Source of the DNA: Hyphomonadaceae bacterium
GTDB taxonomy: Bacteria > Pseudomonadota > Alphaproteobacteria > Caulobacterales > Hyphomonadaceae
Assembly: GCA_022844345.1 (NCBI GenBank)
Contig: JALHLU010000006.1
Coordinates: forward strand, 1 to 64,000
Length of the DNA stretch: 64,000 nt
Direction of reading: 5' to 3'
Under the pieces are notes generated by a model that did not search any database, was not told the DNA's origin, and saw only the letters and a program-made list of their open reading frames with translations. Every line of letters starts with the position of its first letter. Position 1 is the stretch's first letter. Both the position numbers and the translations under genes were made by a program. Positions 874 to 23,668 of the stretch are shown in pieces.

Positions 874-1968
874 TTAAGCCAGCACTGCATCGACGGGTCT
901 GCGAGCGGAGAACGGAAGCGCTTCGCCATACCCGAAGCGCATCACGATATCGGGCCGGCGCCCTGGCATGCCGGCAAGCCCTGCAAGTTCCGGCCGCAGG
1001 CTGGCGACTTCGACCGGCTGATTGACGAAGGCTGTCTTGAGGCCAAGCGCCGTCGCCTGCAAGGCGAAGCGCTGACAGGAGCGGCCTGCGCGCATCCAGT
1101 GATCCTTGTCATCCTGCTCGGAAACAAAGATCGCAACGCCGGCGGACGATTCCAGCTGCCGCGCATACTTGTCATTCTCTCCTTTCGCACTGACCAGCAT
1201 GCTGAACATGTGCGGGCCCAGCCACTCCGGCAACGCCGGTTGCCCGCTTGTCACGCTGAACAGTCCATCGCCACGCAGCAGGGCTTCCCGCGGGCTGAAG
1301 CGAAGCCATGACTTCAGTTCGCGGACGAACATCTCGTCACCCATCTGCGCGCCGTTGCCGGCAAGAACCAGATCGCGCACGCGGCCGATCTGCGGGCGAT
1401 CGGTGATCATCACAAGATCGACGCCGGGAATCGCCGCAGCTGCGGCCAGCGCCGTGACGTCACTTGTGGGGACCGCCCTGCCGTCATAGTCGGCGCGCGT
1501 CGATTGGCGATGCGGGATCGCATCGAACAACATCGATCGAGCAGCTGTTTCGCCTGCAAACACAAATTCGACCGAGCCGCCATTCGCCGCGTTGAACCTG
1601 ATTTCACCCGGCCGGCCGCCGGCGCCTGCCGCCAGAGACAGGTTCTCCGCCGCGCATCCGAGGCTTGCAAACATGTGGTGGTCATCGGGGTCAACCACCG
1701 GGGTCCGCCGCGCAGAATCGGGGAGTATATCGATCTGGCCTTCGGCCATCCTGAAGCGCCAGGGCTGCGTGTTGTGCCCGCTGGCGGCGAGCGTCGCATA
1801 GCGGATGAAGTCGCGATTCTCCGGGCGCGCAGATAGCGCGGCGCGCGTTGCTGAGACGGAGGCGGTGTACTCCTCCATCGACCCCATCTGCCGCAGCACT
1901 GCATAGGTGGCGCCCGCTCCAACCAGCGCCAGAGCGCCTCCGCCGATCAAGGCATCTCGTCGTCTCAT
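874..1968 (-). CDS. Tat-leader nitroreductase-family (Acg-like) protein
   Basis: A 364-residue protein. The ATG at 1968 is chosen because it opens a twin-arginine leader (MRRRDALIGGGALALVGAG); an upstream in-frame ATG at 2103 would add a non-leader extension. The mature part starts with an ASGHNTQPWRF block and has a C-terminal GxxTAFVNQPVEV region. Both are features of the FMN-binding nitroreductase superfamily branch that includes Acg-like proteins. Export to the periplasm is inferred from the leader. It lies downstream of the PrpD-like gene on the same strand, with about 125 bases between, and could be cotranscribed. The substrate is unknown. Confidence 0.75.
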   Translation of the reverse strand: MRRRDALIGGGALALVGAGATYAVLRQMGSMEEYTASVSATRAALSARPENRDFIRYATLAASGHNTQPWRFRMAEGQIDILPDSARRTPVVDPDDHHMFASLGCAAENLSLAAGAGGRPGEIRFNAANGGSVEFVFAGETAARSMLFDAIPHRQSTRADYDGRAVPTSDVTALAAAAAIPGVDLVMITDRPQIGRVRDLVLAGNGAQMGDEMFVRELKSWLRFSPREALLRGDGLFSVTSGQPALPEWLGPHMFSMLVSAKGENDKYARQLESSAGVAIFVSEQDDKDHWMRAGRSCQRFALQATALGLKTAFVNQPVEVASLRPELAGLAGMPGRRPDIVMRFGYGEALPFSARRPVDAVLA

Positions 1969-2092
1969 GGAGTGGCGCCTTCCAGTTTTGCAAGCGCCGC
2001 GGAGCGCGCGCTGCATACGACGCAACGCCCCATTTGTGCGGCGCGTTCCTTGTGAAGCGCAACAACTGTATTGCGCTGTCACTGGCTGGACT

Positions 2093-3668
2093 TCAGGTCG
2101 CAATCATCCGGACGATTTCCGAGGCGCTGGCCAAACGCTCGATGTTCATCGTGGCGTCGATGACTTCGGTGGTGCGGGGGCGGCCGAGGACGGGCCACAT
2201 CAGTTCCATTGCCTTGGCCGTCACATCCTCGCGCGTCATCGGGTGCGAGGGGAAACCGCGCACATACGGCACGTAGAGCTCGTGGCGGCCGGTGCGGGCG
2301 TCGATCAGCTTGACGCGGGCGGGCTCTTCGCGCGCCTGCCCTGCCGGGGTTTCGAGATCTGGCGCGTGGACGACGTCCATCTTTTTTCTTCAGTTCATGC
2401 ACGCGCGTATCCGTGTTGAAGCGCACGCGATCCTGCGCGGAGACGAGATCGAGGCGGCCGTCGATCAGGATGATCGAGGCGAGATAGCGCAGGTTCAGCG
2501 CGGGCATCTCTGCATTGCGGAAGGCCTCCCAGCGGCCGGGCATTTCCATGACGATGCTTTCGACCGTTTCGGGCGAGGTCTTCGGCAGGAGTTCGAGCAG
2601 GGCCTGCACGACGGGCTGGGTCGGGCCGCCGACGGGATAGCGCTTGTAGGCTGTGTGGTGGAATTCCGAGCGGGTATCGAGATCCTCGATCAGGTAGAAG
2701 GGGTCGTGATCGGCGCCGAGGCTGAAGGCCTTGTGGTTCATGTAGCCGCCGGGGTTGTCGAAGCAGTCGGTGACGCCGGTGTAGCCGGCCTCCACCATCA
2801 GGGCCGCCTCGATACCATTGCGGGCGCCGACGCCAGCGAAGACGAAAGTTTTCTCGACATGATCATTGTCGAGCAGCCATTGCCACGAGCCAGACGCCTG
2901 CTGTGCGGCATAGGACATCACCAGCGCCACCTTCTCCGGCGAGAGGTCGAGCATGGAGGCCGCCGTCGCAGCCGCGCCGAAACACGGGCCGATGCCGTGG
3001 TTCGCAAGGCCTGAGTCATATAGCGTGCGCACGCCCAGCGCCTTGGGCAGGCGGCCGCAGAGTTCATAGCCTGCCACGCACGCGCGCAGCACGTCATGAC
3101 CCGAACCGCCACGGTTCTCGGCCAGCGCGAAGGCGACGCCGACGACGGCCGGGCCCGGCTGCACGAAGGCAGAGGGGATAAAGTCGTTGATCTCCGAGCC
3201 ATGCACGATCATGGCGCTGCCGAATGCAGCGTCGACGAGGCCGGCGCGTTCCTTCGTGGCCAACATCGTGGCGCCGTTCTTTGCGTCGGCGGATTTTGCG
3301 AGCGCGTATTTGCGTCCCAGCATGGCGGGTTCGAGATCCTTGCACGAGACGGCGGCCGCCAACGTGTCCAGGATATGCCGCTTGCCGAGTTCGAGGAATT
3401 CCGGATTGACGGAAGCTGTGCGGATATTGGCGATGTACGCACTGATGGTCGGTGTCAGCAGTCGGCCATCGCCGCGCGGCGCGCGAGGCGCTGCGGCCTG
3501 AGTTGTGGCCCCGGCTGCAGTGGGCGGTTGGGCAACTTGCGCTTCTGCCGTCCCCTGCCCCGATGCGGTCGCGCACCCGCCAAGCACCGCGCCGAGACCA
3601 AGCGCGCCGACGCCGAGCGCCTCGCGGCGGTTGGGTGTGCTGCATGCGCGAACAGATTTGGTCTTCAT
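2093..3668 (-). pseudogene. MmgE/PrpD-family protein with Tat lipoprotein leader, frameshifted near 2382
   Basis: The ATG at 3668 is preceded by AGGGA. The leader contains NRREALGVGALGLG and LGGC, so it looks like a Tat-exported lipoprotein. The body is MmgE/PrpD-like: ILDTLAAAVSCKDLEP, SEINDFIPSAF, and HTAYKRYPVGGPTQ. The frame breaks in the A6 run at 2382-2387. Upstream the frame reads HELKKKDGRR and then loses family character. In the other frame, from 2380 to the stop at 2093, come RVKLIDARTGRHELYVPYVRG and HPMTREDVTAKAMELM, the typical C-terminal part. One A fewer would restore a single frame of about 524 residues. It may be a real lesion, a +1 slip or a sequencing error. Confidence 0.75.
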
Positions 3669-3834
3669 GCTGGTCCCTGCCCTCGGGCCGGTGGAGTACC
3701 AGCCTCTCGATGCGCTCATGCGGCGCCACCCCAGGAGTAACAGCAATTTGCCGTTCGGCCAGACTGCAAATGCTTTACAGCGGCGGCGATCAGCGCGAAC
3801 AAGACGGGAGAAAAACAAGACGTGGGAGGTCTGG
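3669..3834. promoter_or_regulatory. Divergent intergenic region between PrpD-like gene and carboxylesterase
   Basis: These 166 bases separate two outward-facing gene sets of the envelope enzyme cluster, so promoters for both directions must lie here unless they start inside the genes. A good ribosome site (GGGAGG) precedes the plus-strand gene. I see no convincing -35/-10 pair or operator palindrome. Confidence 0.4.
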
Positions 3835-5442
3835 ATGCGCTTAACCCGACGGGGACTGATGCTGGGCGCTGCGGCCAGCTTGAGCGCATGCGCCAGCGGC
3901 CCGACCCTCGCCCAAGCGACGGGACAACCGCTGGCCGAAACGGCGCAGGGCAAGGTGCGCGGGCTGCTGCAGGCCAATGGCGTCACCGCGTTCAAGGGCA
4001 TGCGTTATGCGACTGCCACGCGTTTCATGCCGCCGACAACGCCGCCGGGCTGGACGGGCATCAAGGACATGTTCGACTATGGCGACCAGAGCCCGCAGGC
4101 GCGGACCTCTCTGGCGCATGCGGGCACCGCGATGTCGGACGATTGCCTGCGGATCAATGTGTGGACGCCGGGACTCGATGGCGGGCGCCGGCCTGTCATG
4201 CTGTGGTTCCATGGCGGCGGATTCGAGGCCGGGTCCGGCTCCGCGTCGCTCTATGACGGCACGCGCATGGCGCGGCGCGGCGACGTGGTGGTCGCCACGA
4301 TCAACCACCGCCTCAACGTGTTCGGTCACTGCTATCTCGGCGGCGTGCTGGGGGATGAGTTCGCGCAGTCGGGCAATGCCGGCTATCTCGACCTGATCGC
4401 GGCAATGAAATGGGTTCGGACAAACATCGCGAGTTTCGGCGGCGACCCGAACAATGTGATGATCTACGGCCAGTCGGGCGGCGGGCGGAAGGTAAGCCTC
4501 TGCTATGCCGGACGCGAGGCGCAGGGCCTGTTCCACAAGGGCGTTGTGCAGAGCGGATCGCACCTGAAGGTACAGACCCCGGAACGGGCCAATGGCCTCA
4601 CCGAGGCTCTGTTGACGGAGCTCGGCATCGCGAAGGCTGATGCGCGCAAGCTGCAGACCATCGACATCGAGACGCTGTCTACGGCGCAGCGCAAGGTGAT
4701 CGCGGCGGCCGGCGCGCGGTTCTCGCCCATGCTGGATGGCGTGAGCTTCACCGCGCATCCTTTCCTGCCGGATGCGCCTGCGATCTCGAACCAACTGCCG
4801 ATGATGTTGGGCACGACGCGGACGGAGCTGACCAACCAGATGGGCCGCGAGCCCGGCATATTCGACATGAACGAGGCTCAGGCCAAGGAGCGGCTCAAAT
4901 CCTTCATCGACGAGAAGGATATCGACGAGGCATTCCGAAACTTCCAGGCATCGCGCCCGCAGGCAAATGCATCCGAGGTGTTCTTCACCATCGTGTCGGC
5001 GCGCGGTTACTGCCGCGACCAGACCATCATGGCCGAGCAGCGCGTGAAGGCGGGCGGGCGCGGCAAGACGTATGTCTATCGCCTGATGTGGCGCCAGCCT
5101 GTCGAGGGCGGGCGGCGCGTTTCGCAGCATTCGCTGTGCCTGCCGTTCATGTTCGACAATGTCGCCGCTGGCGAGAACATGACAGGGCCAGACACCGAAG
5201 CGACCCGCGCCATGGTCGACAATATGGCGAACAGCTGGATCGCGTTCGCGCGCACGGGCGACCCCAACAACGCCAGCGTTCCGAAGTGGGAGCCGTACGA
5301 TCTCGTACGACGGAACACGATGATGTTCGACGTTCCAAGCGAGACGGTAGACGATCCGCACAAGGCGGAGCGTGAATTCATGGCGCACTATCCAAGCCAG
5401 CAGGACGGCGGCAATGCGCTGCACCGTCAGGCGATGGACTGA
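3835..5442 (+). CDS. Type B carboxylesterase (para-nitrobenzyl esterase-like), Tat lipoprotein
   Basis: A 535-residue protein starting at ATG 3835, 7 bases after GGGAGG. The leader has TRRGLMLG followed by lipobox LSAC (Cys19), so it is likely Tat-exported and lipid-anchored. The carboxylesterase fold is shown by FKGMRYA near 53-59, SDDCLRINVW near 101-110, oxyanion HGGG at 126-129, and nucleophile Ser214 in GQSGGG. The late SQHSLCLPF segment probably supplies the catalytic His. Predicted to hydrolyse esters in the envelope. It heads a plus-strand run with two beta-lactamase-fold genes. The substrate is not predictable. Confidence 0.85.
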   Translation: MRLTRRGLMLGAAASLSACASGPTLAQATGQPLAETAQGKVRGLLQANGVTAFKGMRYATATRFMPPTTPPGWTGIKDMFDYGDQSPQARTSLAHAGTAMSDDCLRINVWTPGLDGGRRPVMLWFHGGGFEAGSGSASLYDGTRMARRGDVVVATINHRLNVFGHCYLGGVLGDEFAQSGNAGYLDLIAAMKWVRTNIASFGGDPNNVMIYGQSGGGRKVSLCYAGREAQGLFHKGVVQSGSHLKVQTPERANGLTEALLTELGIAKADARKLQTIDIETLSTAQRKVIAAAGARFSPMLDGVSFTAHPFLPDAPAISNQLPMMLGTTRTELTNQMGREPGIFDMNEAQAKERLKSFIDEKDIDEAFRNFQASRPQANASEVFFTIVSARGYCRDQTIMAEQRVKAGGRGKTYVYRLMWRQPVEGGRRVSQHSLCLPFMFDNVAAGENMTGPDTEATRAMVDNMANSWIAFARTGDPNNASVPKWEPYDLVRRNTMMFDVPSETVDDPHKAEREFMAHYPSQQDGGNALHRQAMD

Positions 5443-5459
5443 GTTACGGGGAGAGACCA

Positions 5460-6902
5460 ATGAGAACGATCACCAGCAGCATGGCGGCCCTTGCCGCCGC
5501 CGCGTGCCTCGCCCTTCCGGCATTCGCGCAGCAGACGCCGACCGGACCGCGCCCCGCGACCACAGCTGCGGCGGATGAAGGCGCATCCACCACCACGCCA
5601 CGGCATTCGGCTGCGCAGGCGGCGGGCTATCGCGCGCTGCATCTTTGCACGGCGACGTTCTCGTCGGGACTTCCTCAGGACATCATCAACCGTACCGGCA
5701 GCGGCCAGACCGCGACGGGCGAGACAAAGATCGACTCTGTCGCGAAGACCGTGACGGTCAAGTTCGCCGATGACATGGAGCCGCGCATTGCGGCCTGGCG
5801 GCCGGGGCTGGGCTGCACGCAGCTGCCTATCGGCGCCAAGATGGAGATGGTGAAGCACCTGCCGCGCCTGCCGGATTCGATCTCGATTCCGAACTTCGAC
5901 GCGCAGGCCTGGCCGATGGGTGACGCCAACGCGACGGCGAAGCTGCCGGCGGCGCAGGAGAAGGCTGTCTCGACCGTGTTCGACGAGGCCTTCCGCGACC
6001 AGGACGGCCCCTACAAGGGCAACACCTGGGGCGTCGTCGTTATCAAGGACGGCAAGATCGTCGCCGAGCGCTATGCGCCGGGCTGGGGCGTGCACACGTC
6101 CTCGCGCACCAATTCGATGTGCAAGAGCCTGAGCGTGTCGCTGGTGGGCATTGGCGTGCAGAAGGGCCTGCTCGACATTCATGCGAAAGCGCCACTGACG
6201 GCGTGGCGAAAGCCGGGCGATCCGCGCGGGGAGATCACGCTGAACCACATGCTGCACATGGCGAGCGGGCTCTACACCGAGAGCGGCCGCAATCCGCAGG
6301 GCGAAATCTATGGCTCGGGCGCGCCAGCGTCCGAAGTGTCAATGAGCAACATCATCGATGCGCGGCCGGGCGAGCGATACATCTACTCCGGCTCCGACAC
6401 GATCCTTGCGACGCGGGCCGTGCGCGAGGCGTTCAATAATGACGCAGAGTGGATCAGCTTCCCGCATCGCGAGCTTCTGTGGAAGCTGGGCATGACACGC
6501 ACGCTGATCGAGACGGATTGGGTAGGTGACTTCATCACGTCTGGCCAGTGCTGGAGCACGGCGCGGGATTTCGGCCGCTTCGGCATGCTCTATCTCAATG
6601 ACGGCGTGTGGAATGGGGAGCGCATCCTGCCGACGGGATGGTCGGACTATGTCTCCACGCTGGCGCCGGCGCAGCCTGCCTCGCGTGCGCGCGGCGGCGC
6701 TGGGTATGGTGCGCAGTTCTGGGTCTATGGAGAGATGGAGGGCCTGCCCGATGTCGCCTACTCGCCCGGCGGCGCGCTTGGGCAGTATGCGCTGATCATA
6801 CCCTCGAAGAATGTCGTGATCGTGCGGCGCGGGCTGGATCGTGGCGAAGGGTTCAAGCTGGCGAAGTTCTCGGCCGACGTGCTGAAAGCGATGGGGCTGT
6901 AG
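5460..6902 (+). CDS. Secreted beta-lactamase-fold serine hydrolase (class C/esterase type)
   Basis: 480 residues with a Sec-type signal peptide ending AFAQQ (about residue 24). An N-terminal region of about 150 residues that I do not recognise precedes the beta-lactamase/penicillin-binding fold. Catalytic SxxK is Ser219-M-C-Lys222, and the second motif YSG is at 309-311. A C-terminal SPGGALGQYALI segment probably forms the third active-site wall. Such proteins are usually esterases or DD-peptidases rather than beta-lactamases. It starts 17 bases after the carboxylesterase and abuts the next hydrolase, so the three are probably one operon. Confidence 0.8.
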   Translation: MRTITSSMAALAAAACLALPAFAQQTPTGPRPATTAAADEGASTTTPRHSAAQAAGYRALHLCTATFSSGLPQDIINRTGSGQTATGETKIDSVAKTVTVKFADDMEPRIAAWRPGLGCTQLPIGAKMEMVKHLPRLPDSISIPNFDAQAWPMGDANATAKLPAAQEKAVSTVFDEAFRDQDGPYKGNTWGVVVIKDGKIVAERYAPGWGVHTSSRTNSMCKSLSVSLVGIGVQKGLLDIHAKAPLTAWRKPGDPRGEITLNHMLHMASGLYTESGRNPQGEIYGSGAPASEVSMSNIIDARPGERYIYSGSDTILATRAVREAFNNDAEWISFPHRELLWKLGMTRTLIETDWVGDFITSGQCWSTARDFGRFGMLYLNDGVWNGERILPTGWSDYVSTLAPAQPASRARGGAGYGAQFWVYGEMEGLPDVAYSPGGALGQYALIIPSKNVVIVRRGLDRGEGFKLAKFSADVLKAMGL

Positions 6903-8012
6903 ATGCTCACGCGCCGCTCGCTGATCGGATCAGCACTCGCGACGACCGCGTTGTCAGCCTGCGCCGCGGGGCCATCCGTGGCGGCGACGCCCGGCCCCGG
7001 TCGTGGACCGTGGCGCATGTCAACGCCGGACGCGCATGGGCTTTCGCCCGCTGCGCTTGAAGCAGCCGCCGCGCAGCTTGCCGCGCCTGGCGAGCGGCAG
7101 GGGCTCGTGGTGATCCGCCATGGAGAACTGGTGTTCGAGCGCTACTGGGCGAACGACTGGGCGCGCGCCGTTCCCGAATGGCGCAATGTCTCGTTCTCGG
7201 CGGGCAAGTCTTGGGGCGGAGCGATGGTAGGCCGCGCCGTCACGACGGGGCGGCTGAACATCGACGAGCTGACGTCGAAATATCATCCCGCCGAAATCTC
7301 CGGCTTCAGGCCGCAGACGCGCATCCGACACCTGCTGACCATGACGTCTGGCGGCACGATGAACATGAAGCCCTCTTCCAAGCCGCCGAAGAAGCTGGAC
7401 GATGCAACGCCGCCGGGGCCGGGCGTTGAGTATGAATGGTACAAGGAAGCCGAACGCGGCACGCCACCGGGCTATGGAACGACGATCCAGCCAGGCGAGC
7501 GCTTCTTCTACGACGGCGCTCCAGCAGATCACCTCGCCGACATCATCACGGCGGCGACCGGCAAGACGAGCCATCGCTACATGATGGAGGAGATCGTCGC
7601 TCCGCTCGGCTGCGAGAATTTCAACTACCAGCGCGAGGGAGTGGACAGCAAAGACAACATCCGCATCGGCGGGTCGATCACCCTCTCCTGCCGCGATCTC
7701 GCACGGCTGGGACAGCTCTATCTCAACAAGGGGCGCTGGAACGGCGAGCAGCTGATCGCTGCGGATTACATCCGCGACGCCGTGAACCCTTCGGCGCACA
7801 ATCCGGCCTATGGCTATCTCTGGTGGCTCAATCGTTCGGGCCGCACGCCGGGCGCGCCGCGTTCGATGTATTTCGCGGCGGGCGCGCGCGGACAGTTCTG
7901 CTTCGTGCTGCCTGAGCATGACATGGTGATCGCGACCATGGGCTATGGCGCTACGCAGCTTTCGGCGCCGGATGCCTGGAAGGCGCTTGGTCCGGCTCTT
8001 CCGGCGATCTGA
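6903..8012 (+). CDS. Tat lipoprotein beta-lactamase-fold serine hydrolase
   Basis: 369 residues; the ATG at 6903 directly follows the previous stop (TAGATG), suggesting translational coupling. The leader LTRRSLIGSALATTALSAC has a twin arginine and lipobox Cys20. Catalytic SxxK is Ser99-A-G-Lys102, HLLTMTSGG follows the helix, and FFYDGAPADHL takes the YxN/YSG position. The fold matches class C/EstB-like hydrolases. It converges with the thiolase gene, only 4 bases between stops. It is shorter than its neighbour because it lacks the extra N-terminal region, so the two are related but not a recent simple duplication. Confidence 0.8.
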   Translation: MLTRRSLIGSALATTALSACAAGPSVAATPGPGRGPWRMSTPDAHGLSPAALEAAAAQLAAPGERQGLVVIRHGELVFERYWANDWARAVPEWRNVSFSAGKSWGGAMVGRAVTTGRLNIDELTSKYHPAEISGFRPQTRIRHLLTMTSGGTMNMKPSSKPPKKLDDATPPGPGVEYEWYKEAERGTPPGYGTTIQPGERFFYDGAPADHLADIITAATGKTSHRYMMEEIVAPLGCENFNYQREGVDSKDNIRIGGSITLSCRDLARLGQLYLNKGRWNGEQLIAADYIRDAVNPSAHNPAYGYLWWLNRSGRTPGAPRSMYFAAGARGQFCFVLPEHDMVIATMGYGATQLSAPDAWKALGPALPAI

Positions 8013-19568: not shown

Positions 19569-20660
19569 ATGACCACCATGGCGACCAAACAACAGACCCT
19601 CCTGCTGCTGCCCGGCGACGGGATCGGCCCGGAAGTGACCGAGGAAGCACGCCGCGTGGCGGCGCACGTGGCGCCGGACCTCCAGATGGAAGAGGCATTC
19701 TTCGGGGGCGTTTCATACGACAATTTCGGCACGCCGCTGACCGACGCGGTGATGGAGCGCGCGCACAAGGTGGATGCGATCCTGATGGGCGCCGTAGGCG
19801 GGCCGCAGTGGGACAATGTTCCGCGCGACAAGCGGCCGGAGGCGGCCCTGCTTCGCATCCGCAAGGAACTGGACGTTTACGCCAACCTGCGGCCGGCGTT
19901 CTGCTTCCCTGCCCTCGCAGGGGCATCGGCGCTGAAGCCCGAGCTGGTCGAGGGCCTCGACATCATGATCGTACGCGAGCTGACCTCGGGCGTATACTTC
20001 GGGCAGCCGAAGATGATTGAGACGCTTCCCAACGGCGAGCGGCGCGGGGTCGATACACAGAGCTATACGACATCCGAGATCCGCCGCGTGGCGGCGCGCG
20101 CGCTTGAACTAGCGCGCGGGCGCACGGGACGAACGGGCAAGTTCCCGGGCGTACTTAGCTGCGAGAAGTCCAACGTGATGGATTCAGGCCTGTTGTGGCG
20201 CGAGGAAGTGTCCAGGCTTCACAAGGAGCAGTACAGCGATGTGAAACTGGACCACATGCTGGCCGATGCGGCGGCGATGCATCTGGTGAAGGCGCCCAAG
20301 GACATCAACGTGCTGCTGGCCGACAACCTGTTCGGCGACATTCTTTCGGATGAAGCCTCGATGCTCACGGGCTCGATCGGCATGTTGCCGTCGGCCTCCC
20401 TGGGTGAGCCGGGCGTGCCGGGCCTATATGAGCCGGTGCACGGATCGGCGCCCGATATCGCCGGCAAGGGCATCGCCAATCCCATCGCGGCGATCCTGTC
20501 GCTGGAGATGGTGATGCGCTGGAGCCTTGGGCGCGCAGATGTTGCCGACCGCATCTTCGCAGCCGTGGGCAAGGCGCTGGAGGGCGGCGCGCGAACGGCC
20601 GATCTCGGCGGTTCGATGAGCACGCGCCAGATGGCGGATGCGATCCTGAAGCATCTCTAG
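19569..20660 (+). CDS. leuB: 3-isopropylmalate dehydrogenase
   Basis: 363 residues. GDGIGPEV near the N terminus, GAVGGPQWD, RIRKELDVYANLRP, RELTSGVYFG, and NLFGDILSDEASMLTGSIGMLPSASLG are diagnostic. The catalytic Lys is kept in EKSNVMDSG and the metal-binding Asp in HMLADAAAM and the GDILSDEA block. It oxidises 3-isopropylmalate to 2-oxoisocaproate with NAD. A second ATG at 19578 is an equal start option. It follows the LysR gene by 24 bases, so its promoter may lie within or before that gene. Confidence 0.95.
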   Translation: MTTMATKQQTLLLLPGDGIGPEVTEEARRVAAHVAPDLQMEEAFFGGVSYDNFGTPLTDAVMERAHKVDAILMGAVGGPQWDNVPRDKRPEAALLRIRKELDVYANLRPAFCFPALAGASALKPELVEGLDIMIVRELTSGVYFGQPKMIETLPNGERRGVDTQSYTTSEIRRVAARALELARGRTGRTGKFPGVLSCEKSNVMDSGLLWREEVSRLHKEQYSDVKLDHMLADAAAMHLVKAPKDINVLLADNLFGDILSDEASMLTGSIGMLPSASLGEPGVPGLYEPVHGSAPDIAGKGIANPIAAILSLEMVMRWSLGRADVADRIFAAVGKALEGGARTADLGGSMSTRQMADAILKHL

Positions 20661-21076: not shown

Positions 21077-21454
21077 TTAGCTGTAGTCGCAGATGCGTGT
21101 GAGCTTGTCGCCTCGCGTCTCGAACAGGGTGGCGCCGCGGATCGAGACGTGTTCGCCGGGGCGCACATAGTTGCCAAGTTCGGCAGCAGCAACGCCGGAA
21201 AACACGGTTTCGGCCGCCGCCTTGTGGCCATCGACGAGAATGCTCACAACCTCGTGGCGGCGTTCGCGGAACGCGCGGGTCGTCGCCTCGATCACTTCGC
21301 GCATCTCGTCCTTGCCGTTCAACCTGAGGGCGCCGCCGGGATTGCTGATGGTTTCGAACACCACGTCATCGGAGCAGCATTCGAGCATGCCGTCGACGTC
21401 GTTTGCGTTGTAGTGCTCCACATAGCGCCGGACGATGGCGGCAATGTTGGACAT
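21077..21454 (-). CDS. SnoaL/NTF2-like protein
   Basis: 125 residues from ATG 21454, preceded by AGGAGAG. The start IAAIVRRYVEHYNANDVDGML and the DDVVFETI strand are typical of the NTF2-like/SnoaL cone fold, followed by strands ending in ETRGDKLTRICDY. Such small proteins act as isomerases, hydrolases or binding proteins; no activity can be assigned. It stands alone between leuB/VOC and the ASADH-like gene. Confidence 0.75.
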   Translation of the reverse strand: MSNIAAIVRRYVEHYNANDVDGMLECCSDDVVFETISNPGGALRLNGKDEMREVIEATTRAFRERRHEVVSILVDGHKAAAETVFSGVAAAELGNYVRPGEHVSIRGATLFETRGDKLTRICDYS

Positions 21455-21658
21455 GAGCTCTCCTGCGGGCGCGATTGTGCGCGTTGGTCGTCAGCATGCG
21501 GGGGCTGGCGCCGGACCGTCACGCCCATTAGACGCTACTGGCCCCCTCGCTCGAAGCGATTGCCGATACCATGCACGGCGCGGAGGGATACTGCGGCGAA
21601 GTAACCGCGAGAATGTGACGACATGACGACCGGCGCTCCGCCGGCAGGGAGTATTTCG

Positions 21659-22693
21659 ATGACCCCAAAGGTCGCAGTTCTGGGCGCAACCGGCATGGTT
21701 GGGCGCGAAATCCTGAACATCCTGGCTGAGCGCGGTGTTCCCGTCGCCGACGTTACGGCGCTGGCCTCGCGCAAGATGATGGGCGCGGAGGTGAGCTATG
21801 GCGATGCGACACTGAAGGCGAAGGACGTCGACGAATTCGATTTCACCAAGGTGCAGGTGTGCATCATGGCGACGGGAGACGCGCCCGCGCGCAAATACGG
21901 CAACGCCATTTCGGCCACGGGCTGCATTGTGATCGACACCTCCCGCGCCTTCCGCATGGACCCGCAGACGCCGCTCGTGGTGCCCGAGGTGAACGCTGAC
22001 GCGATCGAGGGGTACACCAAGCGCAACATCATCGCCGTGCCCGATGGTGCGACAGCGCAGCTGGTGCGCGTACTTAAGCCGCTTCATGAGGCGGCGGGCG
22101 TCGCGCGCGTGGTGGTCGCGACCTATCAATCTGTTTCCGGCGAGGGCCAGCGCGCCATCGATGAGTTGTGGACACAGACCAAGGGCATCTATGTGAACCA
22201 GAGCCCTGAGCCAAAGGAATTTCCGCGCCAGATCGCCTTCAACGTCATCCCCTCCATCGACGAAGTGATGGACGACGGCTTCACGGAAGAAGAATGGCGG
22301 ATGGCCGCAGAGACCCGCAAGATCATCGATAACGACATACAGGTGGTGGCGACATGCGTTCGCGTGCCCACCTTTGTCAGCGTCGGCGAGGCTGTGCACA
22401 TTGAACTGGCGGAGCGCCTGCCAGCCGCCGAGGCCCGTACCGTGCTGCGTGAGGCGCCGGGGCTGTTGCTGATCGACCGCCGCGAGGAGGAGGACGGCTA
22501 CGAAACGCCGATCGGCGCAGTGGGTGAATGGGCGACCTATGTCTGCCGCGTGCGGGACGATCCGACGGTCGAGAACGGCCTGGCGATGTGGATCGTCGCC
22601 GACGACCTGCGCAACGGGGCGGCGATGCTGGCTGTGCAGTGCCTTGAACTGCTGGTGAACCGGGGTGTCTTCTCGAAAGCTCTACCAGCCTAG
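21659..22693 (+). CDS. Aspartate-semialdehyde dehydrogenase homologue lacking catalytic Cys and His
   Basis: 344 residues from ATG 21659, full length for ASADH and closely family-like: VAVLGATGMVGREILNIL (NADP site), ALASRKMMG, VVVATYQSVSG, QIAFNVIP, and DDGFTEEEWRM. But the active-site motif NPNCST reads VPDGAT, with Gly130 (GGT, 22046-22048) in place of the catalytic Cys. The region FVGHSEA reads FVSVGEA, placing Val242 (GTC, 22382-22384) at the general-base His. It should not make aspartate semialdehyde. It may be a Usg-like regulatory or structural paralogue. The frame is intact and conserved elsewhere, so it is not a decayed pseudogene. Confidence 0.85.
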   Translation: MTPKVAVLGATGMVGREILNILAERGVPVADVTALASRKMMGAEVSYGDATLKAKDVDEFDFTKVQVCIMATGDAPARKYGNAISATGCIVIDTSRAFRMDPQTPLVVPEVNADAIEGYTKRNIIAVPDGATAQLVRVLKPLHEAAGVARVVVATYQSVSGEGQRAIDELWTQTKGIYVNQSPEPKEFPRQIAFNVIPSIDEVMDDGFTEEEWRMAAETRKIIDNDIQVVATCVRVPTFVSVGEAVHIELAERLPAAEARTVLREAPGLLLIDRREEEDGYETPIGAVGEWATYVCRVRDDPTVENGLAMWIVADDLRNGAAMLAVQCLELLVNRGVFSKALPA

Positions 22694-22774: not shown

Positions 22775-23668
22775 ATGCCGAAGGATGCCGAAATTCGCAG
22801 CGGCCTGTTCGCCGCTACGGCCGCTTACGGCCTGTGGGGCTTCCTGCCCCTCTATTTCCAGTTGCTGGGAGACATGCCGCCGCTTGTGATCCTGGCGCAT
22901 CGCATCGTCTGGTCCGTGCCGACCGCGCTGATCCTGGTGCTGGCCGCGGGCAAGGGGGCGGAGTTCTCGGGCCTCCTGCGGCGGCCGCAGATGTTGCTGA
23001 CGCTCCTGGCCTCGAGCCTCGCCATTGCGACCAACTGGACGATCTACATCTGGGCGGTGACGAATGACCGGATCCTGGAAGGCAGCCTCGGCTATTACAT
23101 CAACCCGCTGATCGCGTTCCTGTTCGCCGCGATGTTCTTTGGCGAGCGGTTCAGGCCGCTGCAACTCGTGGCCATAGGGGTGGCCGCCATGGGCGTGGTG
23201 AACCAGACGTTGGTGGTGGGCGCGTTCCCGTGGGTGTCGCTGTCGCTTGCCCTGTCGTTCGCGATCTATGGCGCGATCCGCAAGACGACGGCGGTGGACA
23301 GCCGCGTAGGCTTCGGCGCAGAGGCGCTGCTTCTGGCGCCGGCCGCCCTGCTCTATCTCGGCTTCTTCCTGCCTGAGGGCATTGAGGCGTTCGGCTCAGG
23401 CGATCCCGGGCTGATCGCGTTGCTGGTGCTGGCGGGGCCACTGACGGCCACGCCGCTGATCCTGTTCGCGATCGGCGCGCGGCGGCTGCGCCTGTCGACT
23501 ATCGGCATCCTGCAATACATCGCGCCTAGCGTTCAGTTCGCCATCGGGCTGGCAATGGGGGAGGCCTTCACCATGGGGCATGCCGTGACCTTCGGCCTGA
23601 TCTGGACCGGCGTGGTGCTGTTCACCCTGTCGGGCCGCCAGCCTCGCATGGCCGCAGCCGCAGACTGA
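22775..23668 (+). CDS. rarD: RarD-type EamA-family permease
   Basis: 297 residues with about ten transmembrane helices in two EamA repeats. RarD signatures: GLFAATAAYGLWGFLPLYFQLL, AHRIVWSVP, NWTIYIWAVTNDRILEGSLGYYINPL, and LQYIAPSVQF. Inner-membrane transporter of the drug/metabolite superfamily; substrate unknown (historically linked to chloramphenicol sensitivity). The ribosome site before ATG 22775 is weak. No obvious partner gene. Confidence 0.9.
   Translation: MPKDAEIRSGLFAATAAYGLWGFLPLYFQLLGDMPPLVILAHRIVWSVPTALILVLAAGKGAEFSGLLRRPQMLLTLLASSLAIATNWTIYIWAVTNDRILEGSLGYYINPLIAFLFAAMFFGERFRPLQLVAIGVAAMGVVNQTLVVGAFPWVSLSLALSFAIYGAIRKTTAVDSRVGFGAEALLLAPAALLYLGFFLPEGIEAFGSGDPGLIALLVLAGPLTATPLILFAIGARRLRLSTIGILQYIAPSVQFAIGLAMGEAFTMGHAVTFGLIWTGVVLFTLSGRQPRMAAAAD

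Follow-up and report, generated by a model that had tools for sequence, protein, structure and literature searches.

The 64,000-nucleotide stretch of a Hyphomonadaceae contig analysed here (the window) carries a full-length aspartate-semialdehyde dehydrogenase (ASADH) gene whose product lacks both catalytic residues of the enzyme. Judging from comparison of sequences, it is probable (roughly 60%) that the native leuB-linked asd of this lineage has become a non-catalytic pseudoenzyme that selection keeps for a binding job, a second asd having taken over catalysis. Active-site-free relatives of ASADH are already known in the Usg proteins; what is new here is that a lineage's native leuB-linked asd gave rise to such a protein without leaving its place in the genome, and that the set of residues fixed in it is distinct. 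A literature search covering the titles and abstract openings of open papers found no description of this leuB-linked ASADH lacking Cys and His.

The 344-residue reading frame stays open up to its stop codon (22691-22693; Table 1), and we place its start at the ATG at 21659 in preference to the in-frame ATG at 21623 because a Shine-Dalgarno-like motif lies 7 nt before the former. Both ASADH domains are complete in Pfam searches (NAD-binding PF01118 at residues 4-117, dimerisation PF02774 at 139-318), and among the NCBI models the protein scores above the cut-offs of the asd_B equivalog TIGR01296 (344.4 bits, cut-off 324.2) and of PRK14874 (397.1 bits, cut-off 223). The gene is therefore likely to be annotated automatically as an aspartate-semialdehyde dehydrogenase, and would then be counted as an enzyme in metabolic models. 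The top matches in a fold search are ASADHs, the best being V. cholerae ASADH II (2r00 and 2qz9), and the results agree on a predicted ASADH fold. The one AlphaFold model, built from 11 sequences, reaches pLDDT 77.6 and pTM 0.79, with pLDDT below 50 at residues 157-160, 177-207, 235-240 and 276-290 and with weak catalytic and dimer regions; given this low confidence around the pocket, the model is too weak for a geometric argument.

Table 1. Positions of the gene, its altered motifs, its neighbours and the further asd genes of the same genome (window coordinates unless a contig is named).
Feature	Position	Strand	Basis
asd-derived putative pseudoenzyme gene, 344 aa	21659..22693	+	ORF, Pfam PF01118 + PF02774, TIGR01296, fold matches
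Shine-Dalgarno-like AGGGAG, 7 nt 5' of ATG 21659	21646..21651	+	read from sequence
Thr94-Ser95-Arg96 for Asn-Ser-Ser	21938..21946	+	Thr94 and Arg96 in 11/11 of the Gly/Val clade; Asn and Ser in 99/99 Cys-intact rows
VPDGAT (residues 127-132) for NPNC(S/T)T; Asp129 (codon 22043-22045) for Asn, Gly130 (codon 22046-22048) for the nucleophilic Cys	22037..22054	+	alignments
Arg214 for an otherwise invariant Lys	22298..22300	+	Arg in 11/11 of the clade, Lys in 99/99 Cys-intact rows
FVSVGEA (residues 239-245) for FVGHSEA; Val242 (codon 22382-22384) for the base His	22373..22393	+	alignments
leuB, upstream neighbour, kept in the clade	19569..20660	+	Pfam Iso_dh, synteny
SnoaL-like gene, divergent, directly upstream	21077..21454	-	Pfam, synteny
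EamA/RarD-like transporter gene, 81 nt downstream	22775..23668	+	Pfam, synteny
Second asd, 36% identical to the window protein	contig C2, 512647-513708	-	NPNCVAA, His intact
Third asd, 35% identical to the window protein	contig C17, 64171-65163	-	NPNCVAA, His intact

Alignment places Gly130 on the Cys of the CPNCST motif of S. pneumoniae ASADH (2gyy set) and of the NPNCST motif of V. cholerae ASADH II (2qz9), and Val242 on the His of both solved enzymes; all 99 Cys-intact leuB-type homologues in the comparison have Cys at position 130 and His at position 242. The preliminary description of this DNA, which had reported a full-length ASADH homologue with Gly130 and Val242 in place of the catalytic pair, in a frame without stops or shifts, was thus right on each point, residue numbering included. 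Gly130 also appears in independently assembled named records of 75-94% identity, in which position 242 is Val except for Ile in the 75% record. The same form in independent assemblies excludes a sequencing error or a frameshift.

The replacements reach beyond the catalytic pair. At ten positions where the 99 Cys-intact rows show at least 97% conservation, the clade of Gly130 copies described below is fixed for another residue (71 Ala, 74 Asp, 94 Thr, 96 Arg, 129 Asp, 130 Gly, 167 Ile, 214 Arg, 316 Asp and 319 Asn; positions 316 and 319 were read in ten clade rows, that of G009 being short), and 85 of the 129 columns conserved to that degree keep their residue without exception in the clade. 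Residues retained there include Gly9, Gly12, Gly15, Arg99, Gln157, Glu211, Glu212, Arg235 and Gln327. We take Arg99 and Lys214 to be phosphate contacts, Gln157, Glu211 and Arg235 to be further substrate contacts and Ser40 to contact the NADP phosphate. Of the five presumed substrate contacts four are kept in 11/11 clade genomes, and Lys214 has become Arg in 11/11. If these roles hold, the anion and carboxylate contacts would survive, as the retention of Arg99, Gln157, Glu211 and Arg235 suggests, while the cofactor side appears altered: the probable cofactor-side changes are Ser40 to Met, Leu or Val, Ser71 to Ala, Gly74 to Asp, Asn316 to Asp and Lys319 to Asn, and NADP binding may therefore be altered or lost.

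The leuB-linked gene was found in 14 of 15 genomes of the genus. In eleven (G000, G001, G002, G005, G006, G008, G009 and G011-G014, here called the Gly/Val clade) it reads PDG at the Cys motif and occupies the same syntenic place; residue 242 is Val in ten of them and Ile in one (G008), the G009 copy runs off its contig, and all eleven matches are free of internal stops. Fixation of Gly and Val in close relatives, which the preliminary description proposed to check, applies to the clade (Gly130 in 11/11, with the single Ile at 242) but not to the genus as a whole, in which G003 has an intact copy (NPNCST and FVGHSEA) and G004 and G010 read SPGGAT with the His kept. The one genome in which the gene is missing, G007, has leuB and a VOC gene within 3 kb of a contig end, and the next conserved piece starts 56 bases into another contig; a protein search there for the downstream EamA gene came back empty, in line with an assembly break. 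We therefore reject this absence as a sign of dispensability.

Across the family, a match was found in 102 of 105 genomes. The motif was read in 100 leuB-type copies (G018 was left out of this table, its motif being intact on a separate reading, and G007 has no copy): 85, G003 included, have Cys and His, and 15 lack the Cys. The latter are the 13 genus copies together with those of G092 (VPGGSS) and G101 (IPGPVA), both of which keep the His. A genome of another family of the order, G304 (87% complete), reads CPGPAA, lacks the His and has a second asd of the NPNCTTAI type, so that Cys loss occurs in five genomes of the order beyond the window clade (G004, G010, G092, G101 and G304). A DNA pattern for NPNC(S/T)TxQ matched in 359 of 398 order genomes. 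Fifteen of the 39 genomes without a match are G092, G101, G304 and twelve members of the genus, counting G007. Of the 24 that remain, fifteen were examined: a variant motif retains the Cys in six, the sequence of one contains ambiguous letters, in five a contig end leaves the motif region off-contig, and the other three are G225 (match with an internal gap), G284 (a NPNCTTMA-type gene and no other) and G314 (one weak match). Eight of the 24 had no asd match in the search of order genomes, and G103, re-examined, gave leuB alone. In G225 (contig C65, 3485-6954; another family, 99% complete) only residues 1-92 and 309-340 of the leuB-type asd are matched, a pattern that an internal deletion or a mis-assembly would give. 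The last of the 24, G247 (98% complete), gave on contig C5 only a weak match, ArgC-like by eye, to two ASADH queries.

The neighbours of the gene, which were sought in 25 genome stretches, identify it as the lineage's own asd. The window reads leuD-leuB-SnoaL-pseudoenzyme gene-EamA, and within the Gly/Val clade (the window and ten genomes) the SnoaL gene lies upstream in 11/11, while leuB is present in 10/11 and the downstream EamA/RarD gene in 10/11, the missing ones being cut by contig ends. The order is leuD-leuB-asd-RarD without SnoaL in G004 and G010, leuD-leuB-SnoaL-asd without RarD in G003, leuD-leuB-asd-RarD in G092 and leuD-leuB-SnoaL-asd in G101. Six stretches from outgroups with intact asd have SnoaL beside the gene in 6/6 and RarD in 5/6, with leuD and leuB in three (G018, G079 and G095). 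Because its place matches that of intact orthologues, the window gene is the vertically inherited leuB-linked asd and not a spare copy, and a horizontal or duplicate origin is rejected by synteny. The location near leuB, remarked on in the preliminary description, therefore stands, with the addition that this is the ancestral leuB-linked asd and not an extra paralogue. The distance from leuB to the VOC gene is ~3 kb in G005 and G011 (about 1370-4490 of those stretches) and ~70 bases in the window.

The window genome (4.19 Mb, 99.96% complete) encodes two further full-length ASADHs. The preliminary description had suggested looking in the genome for a second asd with the motif NPNC(S/T)T; both copies do have intact catalytic residues, but their motif is NPNCVAA. 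Judged by these residues both are presumably active, and catalysis is probably carried out by a second asd elsewhere in the genome. Thirteen of the 15 genus genomes yielded a second asd that retains Cys and His; none was found in G009 and G012, which are 73% and 77% complete. These two are also the only exceptions among the 15 Cys-less family genomes, the other 13 of which carry a second asd of the NPNCVAA type. In the second-asd tree the genus, G092 and G101 group together (support 99/93), from which we infer that the NPNCVAA-type gene was gained before their common ancestor. The C17 copy (contig stretch 62671-66663) clusters in that tree with the second-asd genes of another family of the order; it is probably a later arrival, apparently by a separate transfer. 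A reading frame adjoining it looks by eye like an AraC-type/GATase-like regulator.

Possession of a second asd does not by itself force loss of the Cys. Both copies are intact in G003. Among the 398 order genomes searched, ten outside the family, from two other families, carry a NPNCVAA-type gene at an identity of at least 59% (motif NPNCVAA or NPNCVAI in the seven read), and their leuB-type copy is intact in 10/10; nine second copies of the NPNCTTMA type were read within the family, and there too the leuB-type copy is intact in 9/9.

Selection on the altered gene is evident. Within the Gly/Val clade dN/dS is 0.021-0.179 (12 chosen pairs of 55); the same clade pairs give 0.045-0.151 for leuB (10 pairs) and 0.043-0.133 for the second asd (10 pairs), and intact leuB-type copies give 0.008-0.077 (12 pairs). 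Purifying selection on the clade copies is strong, at about the level of leuB and looser than on the intact enzyme. Moreover, the replaced residues are fixed in 11/11 while their codons vary (three for Gly130, namely GGC, GGA and GGT; two each for Asp129, Arg96 and Arg214; three for Thr94). With low dN/dS and residues fixed despite synonymous change, a recent pseudogene is rejected for the window clade. The same observations, together with the conserved place and the intact residues of the other asd genes, support the earlier suggestion that the frame is kept for a job other than making aspartate semialdehyde.

Branch lengths fitted on the marker topology put 0.368 changes per site on the stem of the Gly/Val clade, about 5.6 times the 0.066 of seven neighbouring markers; the clade stem for the second asd, estimated with fewer taxa, is 0.127. 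Ten of the 11 later clade branches tabulated lie at 0.4-1.6 times the marker value and one, uniting G000, G001 and G002, is faster (0.087 against 0.027); three intact outgroup tips lie at about half the marker value, and the tips of G092 (0.882 against 0.140) and G101 (0.671 against 0.270) are fast. For the asd-derived gene, the branch that unites G003 with the clade has a fitted length of 0.000, which indicates that the marker topology suits this gene poorly. Rapid change along the stem with constraint restored afterwards is more in keeping with a shift in function than with ongoing decay.

How often the Cys was lost depends on the tree consulted. A tree of seven neighbouring proteins from 20 genomes places the intact G003 beside the Gly/Val clade, with G004 and G010 outside (support 100), and the second-asd tree does likewise (88/85); this arrangement requires separate losses. 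The gene's own tree over all columns (55 rows) unites all Cys-less rows against G003 (97/97). Without the motif columns (34 rows, leaving out G092, G101 and G304) it does not clearly separate the three possible branchings, and an AU test mildly rejects a union of G003 and the Gly/Val clade (p 0.033); without all catalysis-linked columns G003 joins G004 and G010 (87/88), the pairing of G003 with the clade has p 0.031, and that of G004 and G010 with the clade is not rejected (p 0.341). G004 and G010 have Ala71, Thr94 and Arg214 in common with the Gly/Val clade, which could reflect common descent or convergence. By the marker and second-asd trees, G004/G010 and the Gly/Val clade more probably lost the Cys separately; the asd-derived gene itself gives an unstable tree, which would also accommodate a single loss within the genus. 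By taxonomy the loss in G304 looks separate, though its branch is very long (2.7) and the tree groups it with the Cys-less rows of the window's family. Taken together, these genomes form an apparent natural series of catalysis loss in an essential enzyme, from an intact copy where no second asd was found, through an intact copy with a second asd (G003) and Cys lost with His kept (G004, G010, G092 and G101), to both residues lost (the window clade and G304), and with such a series what ASADH does besides its chemistry becomes directly testable in related bacteria.

In the course of events that we propose, an ancestor shared with two neighbouring genera would have gained the NPNCVAA-type second asd, this gene would have taken over catalysis, and the old leuB-linked protein would then have been kept for a binding job. 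In the mechanism that we favour, the protein would still dimerise; the surviving contacts Arg99, Gln157, Glu211/212 and Arg235, together with Arg214 and the new Arg96 and Asp129, may bind aspartyl phosphate or a related metabolite without turnover, and the protein could thereby sense metabolites of the aspartate pathway or act there as a regulatory partner. This last role is a proposal with much less support than the pseudoenzyme claim, and we consider it rather doubtful. Hetero-dimers with the second asd are less likely, since the two proteins are only about 36% identical. A wider version, tentative but slightly easier to credit than that role, is that leuB-linked ASADH has a second, non-catalytic function even in its intact members: a second asd would let the Cys be shed several times in parallel while the protein stays as sensor or partner, and the window clade would have rebuilt the vacated site (Thr94, Arg96, Asp129, Gly130 and Arg214) as a ligand site.

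The burst on the clade stem could also mark the birth of a new enzyme, in which the original pocket, now furnished with Arg96, Asp129, Arg214 and a hydrophobic side chain at 242, catalyses another reaction without Cys or His. Such a reading would account for the newly acquired polar residues that are fixed around the active site and for the new Cys296 and Cys328, each near-fixed in the clade (9/10 rows). We nevertheless judge it unlikely: no Cys is fixed at 126-134 in the clade (Cys133 in 5/11, Cys127 only in G008), no clade-fixed His is absent altogether from intact copies (His143 is in 99/99 intact rows and His247 in 36/99), Ser40 and Asn324 have given way to varying hydrophobic residues, and the neighbouring genes, examined by synteny and Pfam, suggest no pathway for a new activity. 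Slow decay of a redundant copy since the second asd took over seems more improbable still. That Cys loss recurs in genomes with a second asd, that the G092, G101 and G304 copies, all on long branches, lack other substrate residues too, and that constraint in the window clade is looser than in intact copies would all suit it; the dN/dS values of the clade, the matches free of stops in 11 genomes, the new residues fixed despite synonymous change and the position of the sole genus absence at an assembly break speak against it.

Very little weight attaches to the idea that the protein is still an ASADH using other residues, or that the substitutions are artefacts. Arg99, Gln157, Glu211/212 and Arg235, whose substrate roles we presume, are kept, but the His stands in 99/99 Cys-intact homologues, Cys and His stand in 85 of the 100 family copies read, and the replacements recur in independently assembled genomes. 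Membership of the Usg group is equally remote, although both catalytic residues are lost and searches by sequence and by structure both match the P. aeruginosa USG-1 homolog (2hjs), among others. The window protein falls below the cut-offs of PRK08040 (246, cut-off 273) and PRK05671 (240.1, cut-off 284), presumably the Usg-type models, while passing those of asd_B and PRK14874; it groups with its own family's intact asd by synteny and in the tree (which has no Usg row), and it keeps Gln157 and Arg235. Model cut-offs and genomic place therefore reject Usg membership, and the Usg paralogues cited in the preliminary description remain a fair analogy only.

Among known systems, the window protein stands closest to the Asd_B-type ASADHs (TIGR01296/PRK14874), the leuB-linked asd of Hyphomonadaceae, with which it shares full-length homology, both Pfam domains, the equivalog cut-offs, the place, the nucleotide-binding glycines and most substrate contacts; it differs from them by Cys130 to Gly, His242 to Val or Ile, Asn129 to Asp, Ser96 to Arg, Asn94 to Thr, Lys214 to Arg and the probable cofactor-side changes. 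The gammaproteobacterial Usg/USG-1 group (2hjs) resembles it as an ASADH-fold protein without the catalytic pair beside an asd that has the pair, but the window protein derives from its own family's leuB-linked asd, scores below the Usg-type cut-offs and has other replacement residues and other neighbours. In Pseudomonas bharatica CSV86 (locus L047), an ASADH relative at 6001-6984 that we take to be Usg-like has SPSAAA and FFGDS where the catalytic motifs would stand; it lies some 300 bases after the stretch 4608-5711, which contains an asd that keeps GNC and the His. The enteric order pdxB-usg-truA, given in an excerpt of PMC6358828 where Usg is annotated as a putative ASADH, is absent at the window locus. 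A single asd copy is reported for the 58 proteobacteria surveyed in an excerpt of PMC1885841. Two diverged asd genes per genome occur also in Vibrio natriegens; there, according to an excerpt of PMC12925634, Asd1 and Asd2 are both active enzymes, whereas here one of the genes encodes a protein without the catalytic residues.
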